A program made the translations under genes and the position numbers. A DNA stretch of 12,318 nt from Planctomycetaceae bacterium. GTDB taxonomy: Bacteria; Planctomycetota; MHYJ01; SBBU01. The DNA lies in NCBI GenBank assembly GCA_005239585.1, contig SBBU01000200.1:1-12318 (forward strand), in the 5' to 3' direction. The notes under the pieces are model-generated. The model was not told the DNA's origin and searched no databases. It worked only from the letters and a program-made list of their open reading frames with translations. Positions 7,252-10,043 of the stretch are shown piece by piece (within the stretch, counting starts at the first letter, position 1; every line of letters starts with the position of its first letter).

Positions 7252-7292
7252 AACTGACCTGGAAATCCTCTGGTGGTCAGAGGTGGTCAGTT
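7252..7292 (+). promoter_or_regulatory. Structured 5' leader hairpin before the K/E-rich protein gene
   Basis: Nested inverted repeats could fold in the mRNA leader. The outer arms aactgacc (7252-7259) and ggtcagtt (7285-7292) enclose the inner arms cctctg (7267-7272) and cagagg (7278-7283), which close a 5-nt loop: 14 bp in total with an asymmetric internal loop. A tandem repeat of ggtggtcag (7272-7280 and 7282-7290) supplies part of the pairing. The hairpin ends 21 nt before the Shine-Dalgarno sequence, so it could influence mRNA stability or translation. Confidence 0.45.
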
Positions 7293-7323
7293 GGCAAGGG
7301 CAGCAATGTCAACGGAGGATATC

Positions 7324-8370
7324 ATGAAGAAAATAATAATGGCGGTTTTAGCTATTGGATTCCTGCCATTTATCCTGGTTGCTCAGGATGAAAAGACAAA
7401 GCAGGAACAGGATGAGATCAAAAAGCAACTTGATGAGATAGAAAAAAAGCTGGGTGACATTGATAAGCAGAAAGAGGAGTTGATAAAGCAGTGGGAGACT
7501 GCGAAAAAAAAACAGGCAAAGATAGAAGTGGAGAAGCTGTCGAAAAAATACCTCAGCGACGAGATAACACTCTCAGAGTTTGTGAAGGAGTTACGCAAAG
7601 TCGATCGTGAGAGCACAAGATTTTCCAAACGTGGATTTGGTTTTGATATTCCCAGGGATCATGATTGGAAGAAAATGTTAGAAGATAGGATGCACAAAGA
7701 TAACAATGAGAAGAAAGAGGACAAAAATGAAAAGATGAAAGGGCAACTGCTCGTTGTACTATCTGCTCAGGAGGATAAAGAGGATCTAAAAAAGAAGGCA
7801 GAAGAGCTTATGAAAAAGCGTGAGCAGGAGAAGGAAAAGAAGACCGAGCAGGAAAAGGAGAAGAAACCTGATCAGGAAAAAAAGGTAAAGGATCCAAAAT
7901 CAAAAGAGGTAAAGGATGAGGTCGAGAAGCTTACAAAAAAGTATCAAAGTGATGAAATAACACTCTCAGAGCTGACAAGGGAACTCAGAAAAATCGAGCG
8001 CGAGTGCACAAAACAACCCAAATTCGATAGGTTCGATCGTGATCATTTCATCTTTGGTCACGAAAACCTTGAGAGGCTGAAAAAACTGCTGGAGGAAAAA
8101 GGAGACCAACTTCCAGAAGAAATAAAGAAAGCGCTGGAGGAGAGGGTCAAGGCTCTCGAAGAGAAACTAAAGGAAAACAAGGACGAAAAGAAAGACGAGA
8201 AAAAGGAAGATAATAAGAAAGATGACAAGAAGGAAGAGAAAAAAGGCGAAAAAGGTGAAAAATTCGGCTTGATCATCAAGAATGGCGAGCTAAAAATCAT
8301 CCGTTCTGGCGAAGAGCTTCCAGAAGAGTTAAAGAAGATGCTGGAAGAGCAACTGAATAAAAAAGAATAG
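7324..8370 (+). CDS. Secreted K/E-rich coiled-coil protein with internal duplication, unknown function
   Basis: I do not recognise a family. The 348 residues begin with a clear signal peptide (MKKIIMAVLAIGFLPFILVAQ, likely cleaved near residue 20-21), so the mature protein is exported. The rest is highly charged Lys/Glu/Asp helix, probably coiled coil or disordered. A segment is repeated 131 residues later: EVEKLSKKYLSDEITLSEF at 68-86 and EVEKLTKKYQSDEITLSEL at 199-217, both followed by (K/R)ELRK(V/I)(D/E)RE. A hydrophobic MKGQLLVVLSAQED at 138-151 resembles a worn signal peptide ahead of the second copy. LPEE(I/L)KK(A/M)LEE also recurs, at 263 and 332. The start is ATG 7324, chosen because GGAGG (7314-7318) lies 5 nt upstream and the signal peptide starts there. 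The longer frame from GTG 7273 would bury the signal peptide and run through the leader hairpin. It is transcribed alone. Confidence 0.85.
   Translation: MKKIIMAVLAIGFLPFILVAQDEKTKQEQDEIKKQLDEIEKKLGDIDKQKEELIKQWETAKKKQAKIEVEKLSKKYLSDEITLSEFVKELRKVDRESTRFSKRGFGFDIPRDHDWKKMLEDRMHKDNNEKKEDKNEKMKGQLLVVLSAQEDKEDLKKKAEELMKKREQEKEKKTEQEKEKKPDQEKKVKDPKSKEVKDEVEKLTKKYQSDEITLSELTRELRKIERECTKQPKFDRFDRDHFIFGHENLERLKKLLEEKGDQLPEEIKKALEERVKALEEKLKENKDEKKDEKKEDNKKDDKKEEKKGEKGEKFGLIIKNGELKIIRSGEELPEELKKMLEEQLNKKE
7525..7617 (+). repeat. Internal protein repeat, copy 1
   Basis: It encodes residues 68-98 of the K/E-rich protein, centred on VEKLSKKYLSDEITLSEF and ELRKVDREST. It aligns without gaps to copy 2 at 7918-8010. 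Confidence 0.8.
7918..8010 (+). repeat. Internal protein repeat, copy 2
   Basis: It encodes residues 199-229, centred on VEKLTKKYQSDEITLSEL and ELRKIERECT. The differences from copy 1 are mostly conservative (S/T, V/I, D/E, K/R), as expected of an old duplication under selection. Confidence 0.8.
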
Positions 8371-8377
8371 AAATTAA

Positions 8378-8404
8378 AGGGGCGCTAATGGTTTTAGCGC
8401 CCCT
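8378..8404. terminator. Convergent terminator; encloses the stop codon of the MFS gene
   Basis: A perfect 11-bp stem, aggggcgctaa (8378-8388) and ttagcgcccct (8394-8404), closes a 5-nt loop (tggtt). It starts 8 nt after the stop of the K/E-rich gene. The stop codon of the minus-strand MFS gene (8394-8396) is part of the stem. On the minus strand a T-rich tail (TTTAATTT) follows; on the + strand the tail is poor. It probably serves both convergent genes. Confidence 0.75.
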
Positions 8405-9602
8405 CCATTTCATCAACTGGCTTCACCTTTCTGAAAGCAACCCACAGTGATACATCATAAATAATCTTAAGAGAACCCCCAATGTATAATGGCAAGGCCT
8501 TTGATAGGCCCATAAATGCACCCGCAAAAGTAGGTGTTATAGACCAGGCGCAGTTTCTAGCTAAATTTGACATACCTGAAGCGAATGTCCTCTCTTCTTC
8601 ATTAACTATGCTTACAATATAGGACTGTCTTGTCGGTACATCCATCTGAACCAGAAATTCGCGCAGAACAAACAGAGCAGCAGCTAACAGAAAACTGTCC
8701 ATGAAGGGCAGTGCCATCAGAACTAGGCTAGATGGTATATGTGTGAATACCATGGTGTTTATCAGTCCTATCCTGTGACTCAGCCAAACTGCGACTAGAT
8801 ATGAAATAGAATTTGCAATGCGTCCGGCGAAGAAAAGAAAACCCAAGTGCTCGGGAGAAATGCCAAACTTGGTGAAAAACCAGATGGCCAGGAAGGACTG
8901 TGCTATGAAACCGCTCCCTAAACTGTCTATAGTCGAAAGAGCAGCGAACCCAAAGACGCGTTTTTGTGTCGGCTTGGATATTACTTGGCGTTCTAGCCGC
9001 TTTTTAGTTTCGATCAGAGTGGGGAGCAGAAAATAGCATAGAATCGGAATACCCATAAGAATGGAATATGAGAGAAAAGTGAACCTGTAAGCCTCGATCT
9101 CGCTAACTCTAAAGTAATTGGTGAATAGACTGGGCAGAAAGGCGTAAAGACTTCCCAAGGCATGTCCTACATCCATAATAAAGTTATAGACTGAGAATGC
9201 TGCTGTCCTGGATTTAGCCTCTACAGTTTGAGGTATAATTGCCTGTTCAACTGAATAAGCCCCGTGTCTGTCCTTTCCCATCCCATTTACCATCCCTAAA
9301 AAGGCAAAAAAAAGGAATGCCCATAGTTCACATGTGAATGAAATGAATAGACCTCCAACCACACTTGAAAGAGCCAAGATTACAAGTGTGTTTCTCCTGC
9401 CCAGTCTTTCAGCAAAGAGGCTTGCAAATAATGTTGAAAGGGCAGCTCCAGTCAGTCCTGATGAGATTACTAGCCCAATAGATATCTCATTAAAACCATT
9501 CTTAGAGAGGTATATTCCAAAGATTGTCCCGGCAAGCCCTACCGCCTGGGCCCTGAAAAAGGCAGCGATGTAGATCAGAATGTTAGATTTTGTTATCTGC
9601 AA
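8394..9602 (-). CDS. MFS family transporter
   Basis: This is a 12-helix inner-membrane permease of the major facilitator superfamily (402 residues), probably driven by ion gradients. A motif-A-like loop FAERLGRRNT (63-72) lies between helices 2 and 3, and hydrophobic helices alternate with short charged loops in two halves around a basic central loop (about 198-215). The C-terminal half has RxSYIVSIVNEEERTFASG (325-343) and GGSLKIIYD (375-383), features I associate with an uncharacterised MFS group found in bacteria and archaea; the substrate is unknown. The start is TTG, because an in-frame stop (the stop of the upstream gene) lies 9 nt before it and no ATG precedes the first helix. It sits directly behind the selenocysteine HMA lipoprotein gene, so co-transcription, possibly coupled translation, and a role in metal or metalloid handling are plausible. 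Confidence 0.88.
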   Translation of the reverse strand: MQITKSNILIYIAAFFRAQAVGLAGTIFGIYLSKNGFNEISIGLVISSGLTGAALSTLFASLFAERLGRRNTLVILALSSVVGGLFISFTCELWAFLFFAFLGMVNGMGKDRHGAYSVEQAIIPQTVEAKSRTAAFSVYNFIMDVGHALGSLYAFLPSLFTNYFRVSEIEAYRFTFLSYSILMGIPILCYFLLPTLIETKKRLERQVISKPTQKRVFGFAALSTIDSLGSGFIAQSFLAIWFFTKFGISPEHLGFLFFAGRIANSISYLVAVWLSHRIGLINTMVFTHIPSSLVLMALPFMDSFLLAAALFVLREFLVQMDVPTRQSYIVSIVNEEERTFASGMSNLARNCAWSITPTFAGAFMGLSKALPLYIGGSLKIIYDVSLWVAFRKVKPVDEMEGR

Positions 9603-9611
9603 ATGGCAGTG

Positions 9612-9926
9612 TTACTGTGCGATCACGCCGCTGAATTTGCCAGTGTCAGTCAGCGCTTTGAGCAATGCGTTAGTATCTTTTTTTGTCTTGTCTACTTTTA
9701 CTGTTGCTAATTTTTTACTAAAATCAATTGAGACATCTGACACACCATTGACCTTGCTCAAGGCACTCTTCACGGAGTTTACACAGCTAACAGGTCAGGT
9801 CATGCCGCTTACTTGTATCGTTACTATATCCTGGGAACTGTCAGTATTTTTATTGCCTCCTGAAGGAGGCTTGCTTTCGCACCCTAGAAAAGCTATTAGC
9901 AACGCGAAAAAAAGCGCTAATTTCAT
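9612..9926 (-). CDS. Candidate selenoprotein: HMA-domain lipoprotein with in-frame TGA (Sec44)
   Basis: The frame from ATG 9926 to TAA 9612 gives 104 residues if the single TGA (9797-9795, codon 44) is read through. Residues 1-16 (MKLALFFALLIAFLGC) are a lipoprotein signal peptide; Glu follows lipidated Cys16, which in Gram-negatives favours outer-membrane sorting. A polar linker leads to an HMA domain (about 34-102): VSGMT-U-PVSCVNSVKSAL, then KVNGVSDVSIDFSKKLATVKVD and ALLKALTDTGKF. The TGA stands exactly where the first metal-binding Cys of GMTC is expected, and the partner C48 is present, giving a U-x3-C motif. The frame stays open and HMA-like after the TGA, and a SECIS-like hairpin starts at it. 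A strong Shine-Dalgarno sequence (AGGTGAT, 9935-9929) precedes the ATG. The MFS gene follows after 9 nt. Expected role: binding soft metal ions in the envelope. Alternatives are a recent nonsense mutation or a sequencing error (TGC to TGA). Confidence 0.8.
9749..9797 (-). promoter_or_regulatory. Putative bacterial SECIS element at the in-frame UGA
   Basis: Counting the U of UGA as +1, UGACCU (+1 to +6) pairs with AGGUCA (+44 to +49), GCU (+11 to +13) pairs with AGC (+40 to +42), and the apical stem ACUC (+20 to +23) pairs with GAGU (+30 to +33) around the 6-nt loop CGUGAA. The loop has a G in its first two positions and lies about 21-26 nt after the UGA, as bacterial SECIS elements require. 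The element begins at the UGA and lies within the coding sequence, as in fdhF of E. coli. No folding program was run; the apical stem is short. Confidence 0.6.
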
Positions 9927-10043
9927 ATATCACCTAAAAAAAACCCGAGTCGCCTTGTAAAATTTCTGCGTAATGTCATTTTGAGCTGACCCATACATAT
10001 TGATATTCTACATCTTTCTGAGGCGCTTTCTAACATTTTCTTA

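Follow-up and report, generated by a model that had tools for sequence, protein, structure and literature searches.

A recurrent in-frame UGA, probably read as selenocysteine, in the metal-binding loop of an HMA-domain protein family of Planctomycetota

The window, by which we mean the whole 12,318-nt stretch of DNA analysed, contains on its minus strand a short gene for an HMA-domain protein and, directly downstream of it, a gene for an MFS transporter (Table 1). The sequence-only reading had placed the HMA gene at the same coordinates and described its frame as broken by one TGA alone; both statements hold, codon 44 being the sole in-frame stop of a 104-codon frame that has no other defect. 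The gene lies on the minus strand, and the plus strand contains several stops in the same frame. The translation runs MKLALFFALLIAFLGC...SGMT-U-PVSCVNSVKSAL..., in which U is residue 44. With Cys written for U, the protein matches the HMA domain (PF00403) with 52.7 bits (E = 5.8e-14), above the gathering cut-off of 24.8. Because the match spans residues 36-97, the similarity continues 53 residues beyond the TGA.

Table 1 Features of the HMA locus and its surroundings in the window
Feature	Position	Strand	Remarks
HMA lipoprotein gene	9612..9926	minus	104 codons plus TAA, single in-frame TGA; ATG at 9926 and TAA at 9614-9612
TGA codon 44	9795..9797	minus	Probable Sec, at the first of the two metal-binding positions in the HMA loop
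TGT codon 48	9783..9785	minus	Second metal-binding Cys of U-x-x-x-C
Signal peptide ending FLGC (Cys16)	9879..9926	minus	Lipobox-like; fits loose pattern scan
Shine-Dalgarno-like AGGTGA	9930..9935	minus	Read directly; ends 3 nt before ATG
Predicted stem-loop, SECIS candidate	9749..9797	minus	Begins at UGA; not significant alone
Apical helix ACUC-CGUGAA-GAGU	9778-9765		4 bp; loop 20 nt after UGA
MFS transporter gene	8394..9602	minus	Starts TTG, 9 nt past the HMA stop
Lys/Glu-rich ORF, highly charged	7273-8370	plus	One weak Pfam match, under cut-off

The ordinary metal site of an HMA domain is CxxC, one residue shorter than the U-x-x-x-C of the window motif, GMT-U-PVSC, which therefore does not have the usual HMA spacing. 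This difference had been overlooked in the sequence-only reading, and a plain CxxC motif with Sec at its first position was rejected because three residues separate U from Cys. The column of Cys48 is invariant in an alignment of 15 rows in which TGA is written as C. An origin of the TGA by slippage in an ACCTG repeat, seen by eye, was dropped because relatives share the spacing with other codons. Upstream of the frame, AGGTGA is a good Shine-Dalgarno core with a short spacing. The short putative signal peptide ends in a lipobox-like FLGC (Cys16), which fits a loose lipobox pattern; Leu is usual at -3 in the lipobox consensus, and the Phe found there is therefore unusual.

The short distance between the HMA and MFS genes suggests that the two may be co-transcribed. 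The MFS neighbour itself gives no hint of metal, and its relatives, present in 5 of 99 genomes, have no adjoining HMA gene; a fixed HMA-MFS operon is therefore unsupported. The ORFs around 24 family loci, inspected by eye on mostly GC-rich contigs with noisy ORF picks, revealed no conserved partner, so that gene context indicates no function besides the MerT fusions described below.

A database search with the single protein gave three candidates, none at E 0.001. A comparison with 99 relatives of the nearest genome (G001) gave matches in 44 at that threshold. An in-frame TGA was present in 23 of the listed matches, from 21 genomes (those in G047 and G050 were left unread), with no TAA or TAG among those listed; the genome behind L002 likewise has a TGA-bearing match. 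We then used a profile, A1, of 15 domains (14 with TGA, one Cys form); at E 1e-5 it gave matches in 278 of the phylum's 392 genomes, many of them to ordinary HMA domains. Among the 150 matches listed, 57 in 48 genomes carried an in-frame TGA (72 TGA in total, two of the contigs being 9.5 and 5.0 Mb long) and none carried TAA or TAG, as compared with a stop in 10 of 111 matches (3 TGA, 4 TAA, 3 TAG) in a rough control search with DXS. We scanned L033-L134 (102 loci, of which ten are SelB or tRNA loci) and the window in six frames with a profile and obtained 94 distinct domain hits; 63 of them contain a TGA. In 61 of these 63, including the window, the TGA lies exactly at the first metal-binding position (60 distinct sites, one gene being represented by both L077 and L121), which bears out the earlier placement of the TGA at the first Cys of GMTC. 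By spacing, the 61 U hits are divided into UxxxC (40), UxxxU (15), UxxC (5), and UxxU (1), and the 27 C hits of the same scan into CxxC (19) and CxxxC (8); thus both Cys and TGA, proposed as what homologues should have in the column of U44, were found there. The loci were picked partly for having a TGA, so that the proportion of U forms among them is not a frequency. The search for the family covered relatives of planctomycete genomes. The recurrence of the TGA position in many genomes is more than chance. With the same TGA in so many relatives, the gene seems to belong to a genuine family that has not been catalogued rather than to be broken, and comparison with these relatives makes a base-call error at the TGA very unlikely.

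Several members depart from the one-domain, one-TGA arrangement. The UxxxU hits (15 of 61 U hits; L051, L085, L096, L103 (two), L104, L106, L107, L109, L111, L112, L114, L115, L117, and L120) have two TGAs 12 nt apart and raise the question of how both UGAs are decoded with one stem-loop. L072, L098, L099, L103, and L122 each have two Sec HMA domains with a TGA of their own; in L044/L072 both Sec HMA domains are in one reading frame. L100 (G394), on the 5.0-Mb contig, encodes three HMA domains (GMTUASC, GMTUGAAC, and GMGCEAC), placing Sec and Cys forms next to each other. Finally, L035 and L043, the source of the two remaining TGA hits of the scan, have, near the Sec HMA gene, a second HMA-like frame with the motif TUMAUP and two TGAs each (UxxU); these domains, of which that of L043 is below all NCBIfam cut-offs, are possibly a further type of selenoprotein.

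In homologues, the TGA of the window gene is aligned with Cys. With an alignment as query, 151 proteins of the database were matched at E 1e-8; among the best 120, which were listed and do not include P0001 itself, 80 have CxxxC, 36 CxxC, and 4 no motif by the pattern used; the names among the matches include heavy-metal-associated domain-containing protein [Planctomycetes], copper chaperone CopZ, and mercuric ion binding protein. A lipobox-like sequence is found near the start of 78 of the 80 CxxxC proteins, many of which are near-copies of one GMACGVMC subfamily, vs 3 of the 36 CxxC proteins. Similarly, the loose lipobox pattern occurs upstream in 35/61 U hits (a few doubtful, e.g. the MerT fusion L066), 6/8 CxxxC hits, and 0/19 CxxC hits of the scanned loci. 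Because the lipobox is found mostly with CxxxC and rarely with CxxC, three-residue spacing and lipid anchoring tend to co-occur, and the signal sequences predict that the family is mostly exported. On a tree of 88 rows (81 columns), in which bootstrap had not settled and the window's placement is not fixed, the U/C label requires 9 changes, at least 5 of which are forced by well-supported branches; to judge from this tree, Sec and Cys appear to have been swapped several times within the Planctomycetota family. The row most identical to the window is a CxxC Cys form, L127 (43% over 74 columns). In a near-identical trio, L087 and L090 carry GMTUGAGC and L073 carries GMTCGAGC, with 89-95% identity after the motif, providing ready-made natural pairs for testing U against C.

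If the TGA were a true stop, the 3' stretch would evolve neutrally. Instead, dN/dS after the motif is 0.07-0.32 in 11 of 12 U-containing pairs and 0.53 in the remaining pair (L080/L088), in a set kept to pairs more than 60% identical, a cut that favours conserved pairs; the many synonymous changes in these pairs document that time has passed. This stretch is thus under purifying selection in the relatives. A decaying gene, in which relatives would accumulate stops or frameshifts, had been named beforehand as an outcome that would speak against a selenoprotein; this purifying selection and the exclusive use of TGA among the 150 listed phylum matches contradict it. We therefore regard it as extremely improbable that the gene is a pseudogene or contains a sequencing error and that TGA44 is a real stop. 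The weakness of the window's own stem-loop would fit that explanation, but the in-frame TGA recurs in dozens of genomes and on multi-megabase contigs, relatives are selected after it, and the window frame is otherwise undamaged.

The base of the window's predicted stem lies at the UGA, a position that fits a SECIS element. Its folding z is -0.34 for a 45-nt stretch, -1.66 (p 0.07) for one of 54 nt, and -1.20 against dinucleotide shuffles, and an Rfam scan of the window gave no match at gathering scores. For the family, we compared folding energy over 45 nt after the TGA with synonymous-codon shuffles. At offsets 0, 3, and 12, the mean z of the 61 U hits is -0.89, -0.87, and -0.87 vs 0.03, -0.23, and -0.07 for 26 C hits; the U hits have z of -0.25 and -0.34 at the upstream offsets -33 and -12, and the signal vanishes at offset 30. 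A helix of at least 6 bp centred 22-32 nt from the TGA is present in 30 of 54 distinct UxxxC/UxxxU sequences, as compared with a mean of 8.0 (sd 2.3, max 13) after column shuffling, a procedure that ignores relatedness and neighbouring letters, and with 6, 6, and 10 of 54 in three control stretches further downstream in the same genes. No single helix alignment fits all 54 sequences. The family-wide hairpin signal in the SECIS position is clear, while the window's own candidate is weak. Short helices are also over-represented at a second place, with their centre 51 nt from the TGA (in 7 of 54 sequences; shuffle mean 0.7); a SECIS does not account for this enrichment, which may be inherited in one subfamily.

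Decoding as Sec predicts that the carriers possess the Sec machinery. Among the 99 relatives, a SelB that exceeds the curated cut-off is present in 20/21 TGA genomes vs 47/78 others (Fisher one-sided p 0.0012), tRNA-Sec, at a threshold of 58 bits or more that we set above the background from other tRNAs, in 18/21 vs 44/78 (p 0.011), and either of the two in 21/21 vs 51/78 (p 0.0005); like the other family statistics, these ignore kinship. The one TGA genome without SelB over the cut-off has tRNA-Sec. In 30 further TGA genomes, SelB was over the cut-off in all 30 and tRNA-Sec (E 1e-9) was found in 28, so that SelB or tRNA-Sec is present in 51/51 genomes with the TGA form. At the same thresholds, 14 control genomes gave SelB in 2 and tRNA-Sec in 3. 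Six genomes picked for CxxxC forms have SelB in 4 and tRNA-Sec in 6, indicating that Cys forms live in Sec users too.

For the window organism, we used its DXS protein to find the nearest of 149 searched genomes, which are those of planctomycetes: G001 (64% identity), G009, G010, and G012 (62%), G011 (60%), and G013 (58%), the next identities being 52% or less. SelB is present in five of these six (not G012) and tRNA-Sec in four (G001, G010, G011, and G012), with one or both in all six; from this we infer that the window organism has the Sec machinery. G012 and G013 themselves carry TGA-HMA genes. In G001, the closest of the six, nothing matches the window protein at E 0.001, and the A1 profile has one candidate match at 4.8e-7; 32 loci around DXS contain no HMA copy at E 1.

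Because homologues carry Cys at the position of U44, we also considered a selenium-free alternative, in which leaky read-through or an unusual tRNA places Cys or some other residue at the UGA. We judge this to be very improbable: all 51 TGA genomes have SelB or tRNA-Sec, a stable fold follows the TGA in U forms but is absent from C forms, and TGA is the terminal codon of two window frames, so that it serves there as a stop too. Taken together, the shared TGA position, the Cys homologues, the selection, the hairpins in SECIS position, and the machinery strongly support the selenoprotein proposed in the sequence-only reading.

As to what the protein does, a single-sequence structure model (pLDDT 72.6) has as its best PDB match by Foldseek MerP, 1osd (E 1.9e-6), and tells little more than the fold. 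In two relatives, a MerT-like membrane part is followed by a UxxxC HMA domain (L066:1477-2181 and L068:1486-2688). The Pfam MerT scores of L066 and L068 are just under the cut-off of 32.9 (32.3 and 32.8); with the MerTP fusion model (cut-off 180) the bit scores are 68.2 and 59.6, that of L068 coming from the HMA end only. L068 has in addition a CopZ N-terminal metal domain between the MerT-like part and the HMA domain (108.4, cut-off 100). Because MerP is the nearest fold and MerT fusions exist, our first guess for the metal is Hg(II) and our second Cu(I). Envelope location and soft-metal binding are both reasonable to suppose, given the HMA fold, the lipobox-like signals of Cys forms, and the two relatives with a MerT fusion, and we speculate that the extra loop residue suits a different metal geometry.

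Our working hypothesis, which we consider highly probable, is that UGA44 is decoded as Sec by SelB and tRNA-Sec, directed by the stem-loop just downstream, and that the product is held at the envelope by a lipid anchor, its one HMA domain, of ferredoxin-like fold, lying outside the cytoplasmic membrane. The Sec selenolate and the Cys48 thiol would together bind a soft, thiophilic ion, e.g. Hg(II) or Cu(I), and the protein would do MerP-like work, capturing metal and then handing it over to a putative partner or sequestering it outside the cytoplasmic membrane.

A different function is conceivable for the same selenoprotein, namely that U44 and Cys48 form a selenenylsulfide for redox work, in thiol exchange or peroxide defence, and do not bind metal. 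Most uncharacterised selenoproteins are probably redox proteins according to the accessible part of a 2026 review (PMC13188914), the U-x-x-x-C spacing is unlike the CxxC of HMA domains, and the same window contains a thioredoxin-reductase-like gene (our own name, based on a Pfam match and the sequence CATCDG). That gene is several genes away, however, fold and profile matches are to proteins of the HMA, MerP, and CopZ types, and two relatives fuse the UxxxC domain to a MerT-like part; we therefore consider a redox function unlikely and continue to favour metal binding.

More broadly, we find it fairly probable that the window gene belongs to a widespread, uncatalogued Planctomycetota family of exported HMA proteins in which a selenolate-thiol (U-x3-C) or two-selenolate (U-x3-U) site of new spacing would act as an envelope trap for soft metals, as the selenium counterpart of MerP, some members having a pair of Sec domains or, within one motif, two Sec codons 12 nt apart. 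Discussion of Sec usually treats it as a redox residue. Here it is a likely metal ligand in a well-studied metal-binding fold, making the effect of a selenolate on affinity and selectivity for Hg(II), Cu(I), and Ag(I) testable against the natural Cys form. Because gene callers that treat TGA as a stop are expected to split or miss such genes, the Planctomycetota selenoproteome may be undercounted.

In the open-access literature, we found no UxxxC selenoprotein and no title on such a family. Selenoproteins have been reported in two planctomycetes, as far as the accessible text states (PMC4807772). The accessible part of a 2026 inventory (PMC13188914) counts 119 selenoprotein families or subfamilies, including a UxxC cation ATPase, a UxxU metal-binding protein tabulated with 2 Sec, and a MerT-type protein, the same three that are named in the available part of PMC9312934; neither a UxxxC motif nor an HMA lipoprotein is in Table 1 of the inventory. 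The Sec cation-transporting ATPase, as these two sources present it in the parts available, resembles the window protein in having Sec in or near a heavy-metal-binding protein and differs in being a large ATPase with UxxC. A Sec MerP from ocean metagenomes (PMC2398784), likewise with Sec in or near a metal-binding protein, is given in the part of that paper available as a table row without motif and with 0 Cys homologues; it could be related to the UxxxC family.

The window protein matches 16 NCBIfam models, each below its cut-off, and all 15 A1 members match the MerT_CopZ_Se, MerP, and UxxU_metal_bind models at E 0.001. The UxxU metal-binding (seleno)protein (NF041115) is likewise a selenoprotein of HMA type and small size whose metal site contains Sec, but it has UxxU over 74 positions and the matched part has no signal peptide (window protein 42.3, cut-off 95). 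The best match, at 56.6 bits, is the MerT/CopZ fusion-like heavy metal transport selenoprotein (NF045683, MerT_CopZ_Se, cut-off 375 bits), of which the window protein matches the HMA part only (positions 158-228 of 235). MerP is a soluble periplasmic protein with a CxxC motif and is not lipid-anchored. It nevertheless resembles the window protein (TIGR02052; PDB 1afi, 1osd) in consisting of one exported HMA domain and is both its best fold match and its second-best NCBIfam match (55.2 bits, cut-off 92.55), the window protein differing from it as a UxxxC putative lipoprotein.
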